Assembly (NCBI RefSeq): GCF_015840335.1
Contig: NZ_CP060395.1
Span: 2,207,277-2,271,276 of the forward strand
DNA: 64,000 bases
Origin: Synechococcus sp. CBW1108
GTDB taxonomy: Bacteria; Cyanobacteriota; Cyanobacteriia; PCC-6307; Cyanobiaceae
Reading direction: 5' to 3'
The translations under genes were made by a program, and so were the position numbers. The stretch's first letter is position 1; the number at the start of each line of letters is the position of its first letter. Shown piece after piece: positions 808-62,202 of this stretch. The notes under the pieces are model-generated. The model did not search any database. It saw only the letters and a list, made by a program, of their open reading frames with translations, and had not been told where the DNA came from.

Positions 808-1919
808 GGCGTTGGCACTCCCAGGGATGGCTGGTGCCATTCTCGGGCCCCCTCGATCAATTCGCACACCAGTTGCGGCAGGGGAATGCCACTGGAGGCC
901 CAAAGCATCGGGTACATGCTCTGGCTGGTGAAACCGGGCATGGTGTTGATCTCGTTGAGCCACAGCTCGCCGCTGGCTTCGCTGTAGAAGAAATCCACCC
1001 GGGCCAGGCCCATCGCCCCAACGGCCCCACAGGCCTCGATGGCCATGGCGCGGGCCCGCTCGGTGATCGCTTCGGGCACCTTCGCCGGGATCACGGTGTG
1101 ACTCTTGCCCTCGCTGTATTTCGTGTCGTAGTCGTACCAGTCGGCATCGAAACAGATCTCCCCCAGCACCGAGGCCTGCAGGGGTGCGCCGCCGCCTCCT
1201 TTCACTGCGCATTCCAGCTCCCGGGCGGCCACGCCCTGCTCCACCACCAGGCGCGGGTCGAGGGCCGCGGCGGTGCGCAGGCCGTTCAGCAGGCTGGCCC
1301 GGTCGGTGGCCTTGCTGATCCCCACCGAGGAGCCCAGATTGGCCGGCTTGACGAAACAGGGGTAGCCGAGCTGGGTTTCGAGCTTCCCCATCAGGGCTTC
1401 GGGATCTGACGCCACCTGGCTGGCACTGACGCAGGCATAGGCCACCTGGGGCAGGCCGGTGGCGGCGAAGGCGGCTTTCATAGCCTGTTTGTCCATGCCC
1501 ACGGCCGAGCCCAGTACCCCCGAACCCACGAAAGGCACCTGCATCAGGGTGAATAGTCCCTGGATGGTGCCGTCTTCGCCGTTGGGGCCATGCAGCACCG
1601 GAAACCACACCTCGATCTCCAGGGCTGCAGCTGGGAAGCCACGGAAGCCGCCGCGCGCCAGGGAGTGGCCGCTCTGCCGCGCCGCCGCCTCCAGTTGCTC
1701 GGCGCTGGCTGGGCTGCCCTGGGCCAGCACCGCGTCGGCCAGTTCGGGGCCCCACCAGCGCCCCTGGGGATCGATGTAGAAACAGTGCAGCGCGTAGCGA
1801 GCCGCGTTGGAGGGATGGCGCAGGGCGGCGGCCACGGTGGCGGCGGAGCGAATCGAGACCTCGTGCTCACCGGAGGCTCCCCCCAGGATCAGACCAACGG
1901 CGGTGGGGAAGCTGTTCAT
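804..1919 (-). CDS. ddl: D-alanine--D-alanine ligase
   Basis: 371 residues with the ATP-grasp fold of Ddl: N-terminal [34 protein letters not shown] in the middle, then [11 protein letters not shown], and near the C terminus [25 protein letters not shown], which carries the metal ligands (Glu/Asn) and substrate-binding loop. The enzyme makes the D-Ala-D-Ala dipeptide for peptidoglycan. Length fits the longer DdlA-type class. It follows miaB by ~30 bases and overlaps the next gene by four, so it sits in a cell-wall and division operon. ATG at 1919 is the natural start, directly before the conserved [11 protein letters not shown]. Confidence 0.96.
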
Positions 1920-1950
1920 GCCGATCGGCTGGTGCCCACGGGGCCAAAAC

Positions 1951-3375
1951 TCAGGCCAGTTTGCCGCTGAGGGAGAAGGGGCGCACCTCTTCGATTTGGA
2001 CCGTCACCAGCTCGCCGGGGTGGATCGCTGTGCCATCGGGGCGCTGGCCGGGGAAGAAGGTGGGCCGGTTGGTGCGGGTGCGACCCACGACCTGCTCTGG
2101 TTTCTTGGGGTTGCTGCCCTCCACCAGCACCTCCTCGAGCCGGCCGAGATAGCGCTCGCTGCGCCGGCGGGCCGTGAGCTCTACCAGGGCGTTGAGCTCC
2201 TGCAGCCGCTCCACCTTCACCGCTTCGCCCAGCTGGTCTGGCCAGTCGGCGGCAGGGGTGTGGGGCCGCGGCGAGTAGGCGGCGGTATTCACCTGGTCGA
2301 AGCCGATCTCTTCGACCAGGGCCAGGGTGCGCCGGAACTGGGCGTCGGTTTCGCCCGGAAAGGCCACGATCACATCGGCACTGATGGCGGCATCGCTCAT
2401 GCGCTCGCGGATGCGCTCGACGATGCGGCGGTAGCGATCCACCGTGTAGCCCCGGGCCATGGCCTTGAGCACCTCATCGTCGCCGCTTTGGAAGGGGATG
2501 TGGAAGTGCTCGCACACTTTCGGCAGCTCGGCGCAGGCATCGATCAGTCGCTCGGTGAAGTAGCGGGGATGGCTGGTGGCGAAGCGGATCCGCTCAATTC
2601 CGGCCACGTCGTGCACGTGGTGGAGCAGGTCGGTGAGGGTGTGGCTGCGGCGGCCCTCGGGGGTGATGCCCGGCAGGTCGCGGCCGTAGGCATCGATGTT
2701 CTGGCCCAGCAGGGTGATCTCCTTGAAGCCGCGGGCGGCCAGGCCCTCCATCTCCAGCTTGATGGCGCCCGGTAGGCGTGACTGCTCCTGGCCCCGCACC
2801 GAGGGCACCACGCAATAGGTGCAGCGCTCGTTGCAGCCGTAGATCACATTCACCCAGCCGCAGACGCTGCTGTCGCGGCGGGCGGTGGTGATGTCTTCAA
2901 GGATGTGGTGCTCGCCGGTGGCCACCACCTGCTGGCCCTGCTCCACCTGGGCCAGCAGCACATCGAGCCGGTTGGCGTGCTGGGGGCCCATCACCAGATC
3001 CAGCTCGGGCACGCGCCGCAACAGCGATTCCCCCTCCTGCTGGGCGACGCAGCCCGCCACCACCAGGGTGAGGTTGGGGTTGGTGCGTTTGCGCTGGGCC
3101 TGGCGGCCCAGGTAGCTGTACACCTTCTGTTCCGCGTTGTCGCGGATCGTGCAGGTGTTGTAGAGCACCAGATCGGCCTCCAGCTCCGCCTCGGCCTCCC
3201 GATAGCCCATCGACTCCAGGATTCCGGCCATGCGCTCGGAATCCGCCTTGTTCATCTGGCAGCCGAAGGTGGTGATCCAGTAGCTGCCGCGTTGGCCGGG
3301 CGCCGGTCCTGTTGCCGGGGCTGCGCTGGCGCTGGGCTGGGAAAGGGTCGCGATCATCCAACCAGTGTCGACCAT
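1951..3375 (-). CDS. miaB: tRNA-2-methylthio-N6-dimethylallyladenosine synthase MiaB
   Basis: 474 residues with the full methylthiotransferase layout. The N-terminal UPF0004 domain has three cluster cysteines (FGCQMN, NTCTIRD, AGCVAQQ). The radical-SAM domain carries the CxxxCxxC motif in [15 protein letters not shown], and a C-terminal TRAM domain ends near [15 protein letters not shown]. It adds the 2-methylthio group to i6A37 in tRNAs reading UNN codons, using two Fe-S clusters and [16 protein letters not shown] and the CVVPSVRG loop favour MiaB over MtaB or RimO. ATG at 3375 gives the longest product; an ATG at 3357 (MIATLSQ) is an equally plausible start. Confidence 0.95.
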
Positions 3376-3416
3376 GGCTGATTGTCGCGATCGATGGCCC
3401 CGCCGCGACGCCCCGC

Positions 3417-5258
3417 TCAGAGGTGGTCCATCACCGAGAGCTGATAGCTGGTGCGCCCCAGCCGCCCACCCAGTTCGGCGGAGAGGGCCAGCAGCAACTG
3501 GATCGCTGTTTCCGGGGAACGCAGCCGCAGGCGCTCGAAGTCGTCGCGGCTGAGCACCAGCAGATCCCCAGGTTCATCGGCCACCACGTCAGCGCTGCGG
3601 GGCTTGCCGCTGAGAAAGCTGATCTCGCCGAAGCACATGCCGCTGGTGAAGGTCGCCAGGCGTGAGTGACGGCTGTCCCCGCTGCCGAACTGCACGTGGA
3701 CCCCGGTGGTGAAGTGCCCCGCGACAATCAGGAAGAGGCTGTCGCCATCGTCGCCTCGGCGGATGACCCGTTCGCCGGTCTTCACCGTGCGCGGCACCAG
3801 CAGGCTTTCCAGTTCCTGTCGCTGGGGCGGATCCAGTTGCAGGAGCAGCGACGGACGTTCCGGTGATGGTCGGTCGGGCCGCGCCTCGCGGGCCTGCAGC
3901 AACAGCTTTTCGCCGAGCTCGAGGGCGATGTCCAGTTCATCCACCCGCTCAATGCCCGTCTGGGCCAGGAGGTCGGCCCATCGGGGCGACTCGATCAGTC
4001 CTTGGGCCCGGGAGATCACCACCCGGATTCCCTGGCGGTCGAGTTCACCCAGCGTCTGGATCAGCATCTCCAGGGAATTGGGCAGGAGTTCCTGCACGTG
4101 GTGCATGTCCAGCACGATCACCCTGGCGCTGCGCGCCATGCCCTCCAGGTTGGCCAGCAACTGCTCCGTTCCGTAGAAATCCAGAACCCCCTGGGCGTGA
4201 AGAATGCGCAGGGACTGGCCCTGATCGCGCAGGTGCACCAGTTCCGTGTTGGTGCGCCAGCGGCGCGACTGAATGTGGTTGCCGGTGTAGCTGCGGCGGA
4301 TGGCCGAGCGGCCCAGGGGGTTCTGGTCGTAGAGGTGCAGGCTGAGGCGCTCGGAGAGCTCTTTGCAGGCGGCCACCCCGCGCACGCTGTTGCCGTAGCT
4401 GTCGAGCGGCGGGGAGTAGACGGCGATGCCGAACTGGCCGGGCACCACGGCCAGGACGCCGCCGGCCACCCCGCTCTTGGCGGGCATGCCGACATCGTGC
4501 AGCCATTGGCCGGCGGCGTCGTACATGCCGCAGGTGCCCATCAGGCTCAGCATCTGAACGGTGGTGGGGGCATCCAGGGGGCGTTCGCCGGTGAGCGGGT
4601 TGCGTCCCTGGCAGGCGAGGGTGGCCGCCATCACACCGAGATCGCGGCAGGTGACGCTGATCGCACACTGGCGGAAATAGAGGTCGAGGCCGGGTTCCAC
4701 ATCCCCCTCGATCACCGACACATTGCGCAGCAGGTGGCTGATGGCCCGGTTGCGGTGGCCGGTGTCCCGTTCCGAGGCGTAGACCTCCAGGTCGATGCTG
4801 AGCTCCCGCCCAGCCAGCTGGGAGAAGAAGTGGAGCAGCAGCGCCTCGGCCCCGGCACCGGCCAGCTGTTGCAGTTGGGCTGAGGTGGCGATCGCCCCCG
4901 CGTTGATCATCGGGTTGCGCGGTCGGCCCGTTTCCGGATCGAGGCTGATGGCATTGAAGGCTTCCCCCGACGGTTCCACCCCCACCTTGCGCTGCATGTG
5001 CTCCACCGAGAGCTGTTGCAGCGCCAGGCCATAGGCGAAGGGCTTGGAGATCGACTGGATGGTGAACGGCTTCTCCGTCTCGCCCACCGCATAGATCCGG
5101 CCATCGGCCATCGCCACCACGATGCCGAAGTCCCGGGGGACCGCCTTGGCCAGCTCCGGGATGTAATCCGCAACGGCACCCTCCTGGCATTGGGACAGCC
5201 GGTCGTGGAGCTCCTGAAGCAACCCGAGGATCACCGTCGACTGGGTTGCGGGGGCCAT
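3417..5258 (-). CDS. glsA: Glutaminase fused to STAS and cyclic-nucleotide-binding domains
   Basis: 613 residues. Residues ~1-320 are a serine-dependent beta-lactamase-fold glutaminase: the QSISKPF box holds the catalytic Ser-x-x-Lys (about S69/K72), with further family blocks NAGAIA and KSGVAGG. Glutaminases of this class are usually ~310 residues, so about half of this protein is extra. Residues ~350-460 look like a STAS domain ([21 protein letters not shown]), and ~475-595 like a cyclic-nucleotide-binding domain ([38 protein letters not shown]). This suggests glutamine hydrolysis gated by a nucleotide or a partner protein. The gene is monocistronic and divergent from the DgcA-like gene. 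Confidence 0.9.
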
Positions 5259-5446
5259 GCAGGCACACGGTCGGGATTGGAACCTGGCCTGAGCCCAACC
5301 TGGCGAACTGTCGCCGATGCGACCGAAGCGAGCGCAAAGACATAGTGCGCCATCCGTCCCGCTCCCCTTGCCCTGCAGGGGCGGGCGCCGCCAACGCTGA
5401 CGCCGGCCCCGGGCCGTGCCAGCTTGACGGCAGCGCCCCAGCCCCG

Positions 5447-6532
5447 ATGCGCCTGCGCCTGCGCCGCTTTCCGCTCACCAAGGCCGTGCCGCTGGCGATC
5501 AGCCGCGGCAGCACCAGCGCCGTGGAGCACCTGCTGGTGGTGCTGGAGCACGACGGGATCACGGGCTGCGGCGAGACCGGCGGCTTCGACACTGGCCACC
5601 GCGCCTACGAGACCACCGCCATCGCGGCGGAGCTGGAGGCTCTCGCCCCGTGCCTGGTGCCCATGGCGCCCGAGCCCCTGCAGGCCCTTGAACCGCTGCT
5701 GGCGGGGCTCAGCCCGCCGGCGCGCTGCGGCCTGGATCTGGCGCTTCACGACTGGTGGGGCCAGCGGTTGGGCCAGCCGCTGCACCGGCTCTGGAGCCTG
5801 GATCCGGGAGCGTGTGTCGCCACCAGCGTCACCCTCGGGCTGGGGGAGCCCGCGGCGGTGCTGGCGCGGCTCGAGCGCTGGTGGCAGCAGCTGCCCGCCA
5901 CCCGCATCAAGCTCAAGCTGGGCAGCCCCGATGGTCTCGCCCACGATCTGGCCCTGTTGGAGACCGTGGCGGCAGCCCTGGAGCAGCGGCGCCGGGCCAC
6001 TGGCGTGGCGTGCGAGCTGCAGGTGGATGCCAACGGTGGCTGGACGCTCGATGCCGCCAGGGCGATGCTGGAGCCCCTGGCGCGGGCCGGCGTGGTGCTG
6101 CTGGAGCAGCCGCTGGCGCCCCAGGCCGATGCCGAGGCCGACACGGCCGGCTTTGCGGCGCTCCATCCGCTTTGCCCGCTGCCGCTGGTGGCGGATGAGA
6201 GCTGCTGGGACCTGGCCGACCTGCTGCGGCAGGCCCCCCACGTGGACGGCATCAACATCAAGCTGCTTAAGAGCGGCGGCCTGGCCGAAGCCCTACTGAT
6301 GGCCCGTACGGCCCGGCGGCTGGGGTTGGGGGTGATGATGGGCTGCTATTCCGATGCCGCCCTGCTCAACGGCGCCGCCGCCCAACTGCTGCCGCTGGTG
6401 AATTGGCCCGACCTTGACAGCCACCTGAACCTGGTGGACGACCCCTTCAGCGGCCTGCACCTGGACGCCGATGTGCTGGTGCCCCCTTCGGGGGCCGGGC
6501 TGGGCATCAGCCTGAGGCAGGAGCCATGTTGA
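5447..6532 (+). CDS. Enolase-superfamily epimerase/racemase, DgcA-like
   Basis: 361 residues from ATG 5447 (MRLRLRRFPL). The N-terminal capping domain is followed by a TIM barrel with muconate-lactonizing-type residues: the KLKLG lysine pair (general base), metal ligands in VDANGGW, LEQPLA and VADESCW, and the second catalytic Lys in INIKLLKSGG. Such enzymes include dipeptide epimerases, o-succinylbenzoate synthases and N-acetyl-D-glutamate racemase (DgcA). The 7-base overlap with a DUF1611 gene makes the DgcA reading attractive, because DUF1611 protein DgcN and DgcA form a described D-glutamate catabolic pair. Substrate is inferred; L-Ala-D/L-Glu epimerase remains possible. Confidence 0.85.
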   Translation: MRLRLRRFPLTKAVPLAISRGSTSAVEHLLVVLEHDGITGCGETGGFDTGHRAYETTAIAAELEALAPCLVPMAPEPLQALEPLLAGLSPPARCGLDLALHDWWGQRLGQPLHRLWSLDPGACVATSVTLGLGEPAAVLARLERWWQQLPATRIKLKLGSPDGLAHDLALLETVAAALEQRRRATGVACELQVDANGGWTLDAARAMLEPLARAGVVLLEQPLAPQADAEADTAGFAALHPLCPLPLVADESCWDLADLLRQAPHVDGINIKLLKSGGLAEALLMARTARRLGLGVMMGCYSDAALLNGAAAQLLPLVNWPDLDSHLNLVDDPFSGLHLDADVLVPPSGAGLGISLRQEPC

Positions 6533-7596
6533 GCGCCTCCGCCCCGATCGTGCTGCTGCAGCACGGCGGCCTCGACGACCTCTCGGGCAAGACCGGCCTG
6601 GCCATGCTGCGCTACCGCTCCGGCCCGATCGTCGCCGTGATCGATCCGGCCTTCGCCGGCGCCGACCTGCGGGCCATCACCGGCATCCCCCGGGCCGTGC
6701 CGGTGGTGGCCGACATGGCCGCCGCCCTGGCCTACGGGCCCGCGGCGGCGGTGGTGGGCCTGGCCCCCTCCGGTGGGCGGCTGCCGGAGCTGATGCGCGC
6801 CGATGTGCTGGTGGGGCTCCAGGCGGGGCTCAACCTGGCCAGTGGTCTGCACAGCCGCCTGGGCGACGATCCCGAGCTGGCAGGGGCCTGCACCCGGCCC
6901 GGCCAGTGGATCTGGGACCTGCGCCAGGAGCCCCCAGCCCTGGCGGTGGCCACGGCGCGAGCGGCCGCCCTGCCCTGCCGGCGACTGCTGGCGGTGGGTT
7001 CCGACATGGCCGTCGGCAAGATGAGTGCCTGCCTGGAGCTGCAGGCGGAAGGCCTGCGCCGGGGGCTCGATGCCCGCTTTGTGGGCACGGGCCAGGCGGG
7101 GATCCTGATTGCCGGCACCGGGGTGGCCCTCGATGCGGTGCGGGTGGACTACGCCGCCGGGGCGGTGGAAGGGGCGGTGCTGCAGGCGGCCGCCGGGGCT
7201 GGGCCAGCAGCGCTGGTGCTTGTCGAGGGACAGGGTTCCCTCTGCCACCCGGGATCATCCGCCACCCTGCCGCTGCTGCGCGGCAGCCAGCCCACCGATC
7301 TGCTGCTGGTGCATCGTGCTGGCCAGAGCCAGGTGCGCACCAGGCCCGGGGCCGCCCCAGTGGCCATTCCCCCCCTCCCGGAGCTGATCGCCGCCGTGGA
7401 GGCGCTGGCGGCCCTGGGCCGGCCCGATGGCCTGCGGCCCCGGGTGCGGGCCGTGGCGCTCAACACCGCCCGGCTCGCCGGCGCTGAAGCAGACGCAGCC
7501 CTGGCGGCCACCGCCGCCGAGACGGGCCTGGCCTGCGTCGATCCGGTGCGGCAGGGCGCTGGCCAGCTGCTGGATGCTCTGCTGGCCGCTGGCTGA
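6526..7596 (+). CDS. DUF1611 family protein, DgcN-like (putative D-glutamate N-acetyltransferase)
   Basis: 356 residues. The N-terminal half is Rossmann-like (GPIVAVIDPAFAGADLRAITG). The C-terminal half has the P-loop-like motif VGSDMAVGKMSACLEL, a GTGQAGILIAG loop, and LVEGQGSLCHPG, all characteristic of DUF1611. ATG at 6526 lies inside the stop region of the upstream racemase-like gene (ATGTTGA overlap), so the two are translationally coupled. DgcN, a characterised DUF1611 protein in marine bacteria, acetylates D-Glu so that DgcA can racemise it. Function here is transferred by family and neighbour. A strong terminator-like hairpin follows, oriented for the opposite strand. Confidence 0.82.
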   Translation: MLSASAPIVLLQHGGLDDLSGKTGLAMLRYRSGPIVAVIDPAFAGADLRAITGIPRAVPVVADMAAALAYGPAAAVVGLAPSGGRLPELMRADVLVGLQAGLNLASGLHSRLGDDPELAGACTRPGQWIWDLRQEPPALAVATARAAALPCRRLLAVGSDMAVGKMSACLELQAEGLRRGLDARFVGTGQAGILIAGTGVALDAVRVDYAAGAVEGAVLQAAAGAGPAALVLVEGQGSLCHPGSSATLPLLRGSQPTDLLLVHRAGQSQVRTRPGAAPVAIPPLPELIAAVEALAALGRPDGLRPRVRAVALNTARLAGAEADAALAATAAETGLACVDPVRQGAGQLLDALLAAG

Positions 7597-59679: not shown

Positions 59680-62202
59680 CTATTTGCCCTCCATGACCCA
59701 CACCCCGTTCCAGTCCGGGCCGGGGTTGTTTTGTTGCAGGTGCTCGCAGCGCTCTAGGTAGAGCGCACTCAGCCGGTCACCCGGGTGCAGTGCCAGTGCC
59801 GCCTGGAACTCGCCCATCGCCTCTGCCCACTGCTGTTGGCGGTAGGCCTGGAGCCCCGTGCCATAGCGGGCGAACACCGCATCGCGGTTGGGGAAGCTCG
59901 CTTCGGTGCTGAAATCCAGCAGCTCATGCACCAGCACCGGCTCGCTCTTGCCCTTCACCACCACCTGGTCTGCTTCCCGGCTCACATATCGGCCCTTGGC
60001 CCGCCGCAGGGTGGCATCGCTCACGAGCAGTTTGGCGCCATAAAACTTGCAGGCCGATTCCAGCCGCGCCGCCAGGTTCACGCCATCGCCGATCACCGTG
60101 TAGTTCATGCGCTTGGGGGAGCCGATATTGCCGCTCACCACCGCATCGGTGTGCAGCCCAATGCCGATCCCTATCGGCTGCTCCCCCCGCGTCTGGCGTT
60201 CGCTGTTGAAGTTCCCCAACACCTCCTGCATGGCGATCGCCGAGCGGATCGCCTGATCTTCGTCGCTGTCGCCCGCCACCGGCAGCCCAAACACGGCCAT
60301 CACGGCGTCGCCGATGAACTTATCGAGCATGCCGCCTTCCCGTTGCAGGCAATCCACCATCAAGGTGAAGTAGTCGTTGAGGAAGCGCACCGTGCCCTGG
60401 GCGCCCAGCACTTCGGTGATGCTGGTGAAGCTGCGGATATCGCTGAACAACACCGTGGCCATGCTCTCCACACCACCAAGGGTGTCGGAGCCGCTGCGCA
60501 GTAGCTGCTCGGCGATCAGGGGGTCCATGTAGCGGGCCATCGTGCCCCTGATCCGTTTCTCCTCGCTGATGTCCTCGAGCATCAGGATCACGCCGATCGT
60601 GCCGAGGCGGGGGTCCTGCAGCGGCTGCAGGGTGATATTTACAGATGTGGTGCCCTCAGTGAGGGCCAGCTCCGTATCCAGCAGCTGGCGGCTCTCGCCG
60701 CGGTGCTGCACCTCCTGCAGTTGCAATGCCAGCCAGCCGTTAGGGCCGCCAAACAGCTCGGTGGCGGGCCGGTCAACCAATTGCTCCAGTTCGCAGCCGA
60801 GGATCCGGCAACTCGCCTGGTTGGCCGTGCGCACCAGCCCAGACTCGCTGAAGGTGATCACGCCGCTGGGCATGCTTTCGAGGATCGACTCCTGGTAGTT
60901 CTTGGAGGCCTCCAGATCGCCATAGCTCTGGCGCAGCTGGCCGGCCATGCCGTTGAACGACAGGGTGAGGTCGTTGACCTCATCGATGGCGCTGCCGCTC
61001 AGCCGTTGATCCAGCTCACCTTTGGCCATCGCATCGGCGGCGCCGGCCAGCTTTTGCAGTGGTGAGCTCACCAGCTTGGCCGTGAACCGGCTCACCAGCA
61101 CCACCACCCCGAAGCTCATCAACACCAGCACAAGGCTGGTGGCGAGGGTGTTTTTCGCCGCTGCCAGGTAGTTATCTTCCGGCGTGGCCACCACCACCTG
61201 CCAGCGGATACCGGAGGGGTCGTTCCACATCCGCGTCACCACCATGCTGGCGCTGCCATTGATGCTGCGGCGCTCCGCCAGTTCCTGGCCAAAGCGTGGT
61301 TTCACCAGCTGGGCCATGCCGCGAACCAGCGGGTCGCTGGCTTCGGTGGCCCGTTGGCGCACCAGGCGTCCACCCTCGATCCCATAGAGCTTCTGGGCAC
61401 TGGAGCTGCCCACCACAAATCCCTGCTGGTCCACCACCAGCACCGCCGCCCCCTTGCCGATCTGGAGGTTTTGCAGAAAGCGGGTGATCTGGATCGGCCA
61501 GATGTCGGCGCCGGCCACGCCAGCGGGAGCTTTGGTGGAACCGAAGGGCACGGAAAAACCGCTGATTGCCTCCGGATTGCCCACGGCTCTCTGATACCAG
61601 AGCATCTGCCGGGCATCAAAGCTCTGGCTGCGGATCGCCTCTCCCGGCTGGCCATCGGCTCCTGCTCGGGCGGTGATCATGGGGCGCAAGCCCGATCCCG
61701 GCCCCTGGCGGCTCAGTTCCAGCTCGTCGGTTTGCTGGTTGCGCTCCAGGGCGATGTAGGTGCCATCGGGGCGGGCCAGCTGCACATAGCCCAGGCCCTG
61801 GAACTGCTCCATCTCCGTCTGCAGCAGTGGCCCCAGCTCCAGCACCCGCCCCGGGCTGATCAGGCCGCTGCCCAGCAACCTGGCATTGATGGCGTTCACC
61901 TGGCGCGGGGCGCTGAGCTGGGCATTCAGCTCCTGCAGCACCCGCTCGCCGATCTGGCCACCCAGCTCACTGGTGAGCTGGGTGATGATCCGCCCCGCCA
62001 TCTGATAGCTCAATCCCAGCACCAGCGCCATCGCCAGCAGCAGCTGGGCGGCAAAGGGGGCGAACATCAACTGGGGCAGGCTGCTGCGCTGGGGCAGGCG
62101 ATCGCGCAGGTTCTCCAGCCACCGCAGGCGGGGGCTGCGTCGTCTTCGCCGGGGCACTGGGCCGCCGGGGCTCAGCTGGCTGGAGCTTTCCATTCTTCCC
62201 AC
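59680..62202 (-). CDS. Membrane class III adenylate/guanylate cyclase with sensor, HAMP and PAS domains
   Basis: 840 residues from 62202; ATG 62193 (MESSSQLSP) is also possible. TM1 (FAAQLLLAMALVLGLSYQM), a large periplasmic sensor (residues ~75-345, dCache-like), TM2 (TLATSLVLVLMSFGVVVLV), HAMP, a PAS domain (~440-560), then the class III catalytic domain: FSDIRSFTSI (metal Asp), DKFIGDAVMAVFG (Lys for adenine plus second metal Asp), NYTVIGDGVNLAARLESA. It is therefore more likely an adenylyl than a guanylyl cyclase. The C terminus looks TPR-like. It starts within the end of the small upstream ORF. Confidence 0.93.
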   Translation of the reverse strand: MGRMESSSQLSPGGPVPRRRRRSPRLRWLENLRDRLPQRSSLPQLMFAPFAAQLLLAMALVLGLSYQMAGRIITQLTSELGGQIGERVLQELNAQLSAPRQVNAINARLLGSGLISPGRVLELGPLLQTEMEQFQGLGYVQLARPDGTYIALERNQQTDELELSRQGPGSGLRPMITARAGADGQPGEAIRSQSFDARQMLWYQRAVGNPEAISGFSVPFGSTKAPAGVAGADIWPIQITRFLQNLQIGKGAAVLVVDQQGFVVGSSSAQKLYGIEGGRLVRQRATEASDPLVRGMAQLVKPRFGQELAERRSINGSASMVVTRMWNDPSGIRWQVVVATPEDNYLAAAKNTLATSLVLVLMSFGVVVLVSRFTAKLVSSPLQKLAGAADAMAKGELDQRLSGSAIDEVNDLTLSFNGMAGQLRQSYGDLEASKNYQESILESMPSGVITFSESGLVRTANQASCRILGCELEQLVDRPATELFGGPNGWLALQLQEVQHRGESRQLLDTELALTEGTTSVNITLQPLQDPRLGTIGVILMLEDISEEKRIRGTMARYMDPLIAEQLLRSGSDTLGGVESMATVLFSDIRSFTSITEVLGAQGTVRFLNDYFTLMVDCLQREGGMLDKFIGDAVMAVFGLPVAGDSDEDQAIRSAIAMQEVLGNFNSERQTRGEQPIGIGIGLHTDAVVSGNIGSPKRMNYTVIGDGVNLAARLESACKFYGAKLLVSDATLRRAKGRYVSREADQVVVKGKSEPVLVHELLDFSTEASFPNRDAVFARYGTGLQAYRQQQWAEAMGEFQAALALHPGDRLSALYLERCEHLQQNNPGPDWNGVWVMEGK

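Follow-up and report, generated by a model that had tools for sequence, protein, structure and literature searches.

The window analysed here, a stretch of 64,000 nucleotides from Synechococcus sp. CBW1108, carries on its minus strand a complete open reading frame at 3417–5258, which according to the list of open reading frames and its translation codes for a protein of 613 amino acids and runs from an ATG to the stop codon at 3417–3419. A preliminary description had interpreted the product as a glutaminase fused to a STAS domain and a cyclic nucleotide-binding (cNMP) domain. The question raised by this locus is what the domains behind the glutaminase are for, and in particular whether the enzyme could be controlled by a cyclic nucleotide through its own C-terminal half.

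All three domains were found by hmmscan against Pfam, in agreement with the fusion that had been claimed. The glutaminase domain (PF04960) comprises residues 27–310 (4329–5180, on the minus strand like all parts of the gene), and the match covers positions 1–286 of the 286 positions of the profile with 371.8 bits at a cut-off of 27 (2.7e-111). The STAS domain (PF01740, residues 349–437, 3948–4214) was recognized only just, its score of 25.3 bits being marginal at a cut-off of 22.6. The cNMP-binding domain (PF00027, residues 490–578, 3525–3791) passed its cut-off of 27.5 with 60.1 bits (2.2e-16). The cassette motif quoted in the preliminary description was located in this domain; the phosphate-binding cassette comprises 14 residues (543–556, 3591–3632) including E545 and R554. 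Altogether 303 residues (311–613) follow the catalytic domain, close to the approximately 290 stated before. They start with a linker (residues 311–348, 4215–4328) which contains a conserved basic patch, S331-R-R-W-R335; in the alignment of fused sequences S331 is present in 115, R332 in 76, R333 in 95, and R335 in 106 of the 119 proteins. A long C-terminal helix is predicted at residues 582–612, after the cNMP-binding domain.

Relatives of full length align to the fusion protein across nearly its entire length. The domain trio is not a random combination: in a cross-phylum alignment of our own selection all 58 members match the glutaminase and cNMP-binding profiles and 53 match STAS (E-value 0.01). 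The same catalytic domain is found in the second glutaminase of the genome (G000:C1 at about 407,900; L002:1195–2901, about 407,600–409,300), which instead of STAS and cNMP domains has a TerB C-terminus, together with an EF-hand-like N-terminus. Open frames of about 570–610 amino acids with a glutaminase-domain match occur in several genomes of the same genus and may resemble this EF-hand/TerB glutaminase.

The residues that presumably matter for catalysis are intact. S69-x-x-K72, N119, E163, N170, Y194, Y246, and V264, mapped by eye on alignments to known glutaminase structures, are each kept in 118 or 119 of the 119 sequences; their active-site roles and human numbering are those usual for the family and are assumed to apply here. 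In the cassette, E545 and R554 are taken by us to contact the ribose and the phosphate, respectively. The glutamate is kept in 112 of the 119 fused sequences and replaced in seven (by aspartate in five), and the arginine is kept in 102. Loss of the arginine affects all 14 actinobacterial (Nocardia/Rhodococcus-type) copies, as well as 2/46 Cyanobiaceae and 1/59 other sequences.

An AlphaFold2 model built from the 58-sequence alignment is confident over nearly the whole protein (mean pLDDT 91.2, pTM 0.89), the surroundings of residues 460–470 being weak. A structure prediction of the cassette had been proposed before, and the region around it (481–580) is indeed predicted with a pLDDT of 84–97. 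The structure comparison covered mainly residues 1–401 and barely probed this part of the model, so the identification of the cNMP part rests on sequence. The best match in the PDB by structure is 3iha_A (Z 45.8, model residues 8–422), a chain of Mglu, the salt-tolerant glutaminase of Micrococcus luteus (PDB 3agd, 3if5, 3iha). Mglu is also the best match by sequence for the catalytic part. Behind its glutaminase there is likewise a domain aligning with STAS; the STAS domain of the fusion coincides with this aligned C-terminal domain. Mglu with its 456 residues is too short for a cNMP domain, unlike the fusion. Since the rmsd is 11.5 with both domains aligned, compared with 1.6 for the catalytic part alone, glutaminase and STAS are probably placed differently in our model and in Mglu. 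Human GLS/GAC belongs to the same catalytic family (kidney-isoform chains such as 5d3o, E-value about 5e-72, residues 14–312). By sequence it matches the fusion in the catalytic domain only, and the structural alignment covers mainly the catalytic part as well.

A further known enzyme with a fused cNMP domain is the mycobacterial lysine acetyltransferase Pat (Rv0998/MSMEG_5458). Apart from being a different enzyme, Pat carries this domain at its N-terminus, in contrast to the C-terminal position in the fusion, and it presumably contains no STAS domain. Pat is directly activated by cAMP, as stated in the excerpted text of PMC5861322, which cites Nambi 2010. The excerpts of PMC8049743 concern a cNMP domain in encapsulins, and those of PMC10117731 and PMC4284465 concern cAMP in cyanobacteria. 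On a glutaminase with a STAS or cyclic nucleotide-binding domain, nothing relevant was found among the papers listed from the open-licence literature, a scope outside of which most subscription journals lie, and this fits the earlier remark that the combination is little studied. By analogy we propose that the fusion is a glutaminase–STAS enzyme with an added cNMP domain, which might work in the way of Pat.

The full-length fusion is present in 47 of the 399 genomes of the order to which the window genome belongs. Among these 47, two genomes (G217, G094) have an internal stop in the gene, one (G321) has it in two pieces, and two (G083, G246) have two copies. In 12 further genomes of the order the glutaminase part only was matched (E-value 1e-70). 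The best 80 loci on species-representative contigs, many of which come from metagenome-assembled genomes, place the fusion by record title in at least six phyla, the titles naming Cyanobacteria, Verrucomicrobia, Planctomycetes, several proteobacterial groups, Myxococcota, Dehalococcoidia, and Actinobacteria. One of them, L179, is titled as a Planctomycetia genome; the compared motifs of its fused protein are close to those of L005 from the genus of the window, and the contig is probably mis-binned. Genomes were also drawn from four groups with differing cut-offs, and with the seed included the fusion was present in 11/337 genomes of Verrucomicrobiota, 6/350 of a betaproteobacterial class, and 5/179 of an alphaproteobacterial family. 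Spread by plasmids was considered and rejected: 278 plasmid records match, but no single site in any of them covers 80% of the query.

The argument for gating had originally been drawn from a cyclase elsewhere in the window. This gene exists (59680–62202, minus strand, with HAMP, PAS, and class III cyclase domains), but we rejected it as evidence, because it is situated about 54 kb away, is one of the genome's four class III cyclase domains, and no cyclase was found in the retrieved sequence (up to about 9 kb) flanking the window gene or its miaB–ddl relatives. What stood of the earlier reading are the domains and nucleotide gating as the best explanation; the reason given for it is weak, and the better evidence is the cyclase linkage in other relatives described below. 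The genome contains ten cNMP domains above the cut-off. Elsewhere in it, at G000:C1 at about 1,162,000–1,176,000, two cNMP proteins are clustered with a pair of class III cyclases, and as a centre for cAMP this cluster is more natural than the cyclase of the window.

The immediate surroundings of the gene are housekeeping-like, the gene order gls–miaB–ddl being common to relatives of the window's lineage. The gene miaB (1951–3375, minus strand) lies 41 bp downstream of the fused gene and is possibly cotranscribed with it; we regard it as context outside the proposed switch. Promoter and terminator scans over 1700–5600 found nothing, and Rfam at gathering scores found three tRNAs only across the whole window. 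At 5246–7596 there are two genes divergent from the glutaminase whose best matches are two proteins of D-glutamate catabolism, DgcA and DgcN. Neither match reaches its curated cut-off, with 153 bits against 400 for DgcA and 210 bits against 480 for DgcN. The MR_MLE gene accompanies the fused glutaminase at 11 of the 48 loci of the order, and a glutamate theme shared by the glutaminase and its DgcA/DgcN-like neighbours is possible.

Linkage to cyclase genes was assessed within the order. The 47 genomes contributed 48 fused loci, the second copy of G246 being excluded, and these were compared with all 39 listed stand-alone matches; the fetched stretches were 6.6 to 20 kb long, shorter near contig ends. 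A class III cyclase was present within about 9 kb at 18/48 fused loci as compared with 0/39 stand-alone loci (Fisher 5e-6, loci counted as independent). As the Cyanobiaceae loci are related, these are not 18 separate events. A tight arrangement was found in one genus: at L082, L083, L086, L087, and L089 only 7–13 bp separate the glutaminase stop from the first possible start of a cyclase that follows on the same strand. Three of the eight fused genomes of this genus contain no intact tight pair; at L093 a broken glutaminase precedes the cyclase, at L081 the cyclase is 4.5 kb away, and at L088 none was found. Synechococcus sp. WH 5701 (L170) carries the same glutaminase–cyclase pair, and at L105 the two genes converge with 17 bp between their stops. 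All three cyclases tested in this respect (L090, L082, L105) possess CHASE2 sensor domains.

Another cNMP protein was found near 20/48 fused and 3/39 stand-alone loci of the order. Downstream of the fused gene, at L082–L089 and other loci, there are nearby genes for proteins related to a cNMP domain-containing channel of the MscS type (cluster 3, 19/48 loci) and for small cNMP proteins (cluster 29, 8/48). Together with the fused glutaminase beside them, the channel and the small proteins could possibly form a local cAMP module. Co-occurrence at the genome level (a cyclase is present in 46/47 fused genomes and 96/352 others) was set aside because genome size is a confounder; a cyclase is present in 9 of the 12 genomes that have a stand-alone match only.

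Beyond Cyanobiaceae, a cyclase lies within 6 kb at 5 of the 60 loci among the best 80 (L192, L203, L205, L210, L211). About 0.7 would be expected (P 7e-4) from 124 cyclase domains in 119.5 Mb, a density that derives partly from the same genomes as the tested loci. At L192 the first ATG of the glutaminase comes 126 bp behind the end of a CHASE2 cyclase, at L248 a CHASE2 cyclase starts 39 bp past the glutaminase stop, and at L203 the glutaminase stop is directly followed by the open frame of a double-cyclase ATPase. Close pairs of fusion and cyclase also occur in Verrucomicrobiota and Myxococcota. The Myxococcota pair stands alone and has no replication, because at 1e-80 the seed is the sole match among the 235 genomes drawn. 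At L205 the gap between glutaminase and cyclase would accommodate a small gene, and the cyclase is the only one found in that genome. None of four further alphaproteobacterial relatives of L205 has a cyclase nearby, and adjacency as a conserved trait of this family was rejected on this basis. The L210 cyclase is small and weak; among the best 80 loci it has a phmmer match in one other locus only, the L203 cyclase.

From the Verrucomicrobiota and betaproteobacterial draws 15 fused loci were taken regardless of cyclases, together with 25 of the 26 listed stand-alone loci. A cyclase lies within about 8 kb at 2/15 fused and 0/25 stand-alone loci. By Pfam coordinates 4/15 fused loci have one within 10 kb, a limit picked post hoc (0.27 expected, P about 1e-4); with shorter limits the result is 1/15 at 1.4 kb (P 0.06) and 2/15 at 5.3 kb (P 0.01). 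The training set of the first cyclase HMM had included neighbours of fused genes. With a neutral HMM, made from the four cyclases of the window genome only, the counts of 18/48, 0/39, 5/60, 2/15, and 0/25 were unchanged. In these draws small cNMP-domain proteins adjoin the fused glutaminase at L249, L251, and L265 (two Verrucomicrobiota, one betaproteobacterial), in stretches in which no cyclase was found; none of the 25 stand-alone loci has a small cNMP protein nearby.

Taken over all fused loci, 24/123 have a cyclase within 6 kb and 99/123 do not, some of the latter having short flanks. This label changes at least 14 times on a tree calculated with FastTree for 119 fused proteins, from which L093, L117, L247, and L234 were dropped. 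Outside Cyanobiaceae seven rows of the tree are cyclase-linked, of which L205 and L211 are near each other and several are on long branches. The cassette glutamate and arginine are both intact in 23/23 cyclase-linked proteins as opposed to 72/95 others (Fisher 0.006, sequences counted as independent). That the fusion gene stands beside a cyclase gene in some distant bacteria suggests, as far as gene order can indicate it, direct control of glutamine breakdown by cAMP.

The three domains are present, the residues of the active site and of the cassette are intact, the model is confident for all three domains, and relatives show linkage to cyclases. On this basis we consider it probable that a cyclic nucleotide, most likely cAMP, sets the activity of this presumably cytosolic glutaminase through the enzyme's own C-terminal cNMP domain. 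A class III cyclase would raise the level of cAMP, which would enter the cassette and be held by Arg554 at the phosphate and by Glu545 at the ribose. The C-terminal helix would then move, and the change would be relayed through STAS to the glutaminase, probably by altered subunit packing. As a consequence the hydrolysis of glutamine to glutamate and ammonia would change, an increase being likelier than a decrease. In some relatives the product of the neighbouring cyclase gene would be the likely partner; in the window genome the cyclase would come from elsewhere.

Other explanations of the C-terminal half have to be weighed against this proposal. The STAS and cNMP parts could be structural, determining the oligomeric state, the stability, or the location of the enzyme with no nucleotide bound, which we regard as improbable. 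The actinobacterial copies, which retain the domain with the cassette arginine lost, would agree with such a role, and so would the faster divergence of these parts: mean identity to the window protein in 32 relatives, including one broken copy without STAS and cNMP domains, is about 36% for STAS and 45% for cNMP as compared with about 71% for the glutaminase. Most other copies, however, keep the cassette glutamate and arginine, and the repeated linkage to cyclases is hard to account for without a ligand. If a ligand is bound, it could also be cGMP or another cyclic nucleotide in place of cAMP, which appears quite unlikely to us. In some channels and kinases a threonine following the cassette arginine is associated with cGMP, and this position is occupied by threonine in 33 and by serine in 59 of the 119 sequences. 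Furthermore, the cyclase linked at L211 has a glutamate where adenylate cyclases have a lysine. In the other 24 of the 25 linked cyclases the base-recognition position, mapped by eye and the one specificity position scored, is lysine, which we take to be the adenylate-cyclase state; because of this cAMP seems the likelier ligand.

It is very unlikely, in our estimation, that the STAS domain is the true input, responding to a partner protein, phosphorylation, or a nucleotide in the manner of SpoIIAA or SulP transporters, and that the cNMP domain is secondary. Glutaminase–STAS proteins without a cNMP domain do exist, Mglu being one that aligns over residues 8–422, and in the plasmid collection the alignments of matches from Embleya and Acinetobacter reach residues 423 and 428. 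A serine of the type phosphorylated in SpoIIAA would be expected at the start of a STAS helix, a site presumed to lie at columns 392–396, but no conserved serine was found in these columns of the 119 sequences; columns 393, 394, and 395 contain serine in 6, 30, and 52 of them.

With cAMP gating as the favoured explanation, the pairs of genes separated by 7–13 bp render the idea directly testable. Whether the fusions constitute a widespread and apparently undescribed class of cAMP-gated metabolic enzymes, which in some lineages form a two-gene unit with their own membrane-bound CHASE2 cyclase, is in our judgement evenly balanced. The effectors of cAMP known so far in bacteria are mostly transcription factors. 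If the proposal is true, a single external stimulus would set glutamine hydrolysis without any transcription factor, and a cAMP-gated glutaminase would tie the second messenger straight to the balance of glutamine and glutamate at the centre of nitrogen metabolism.
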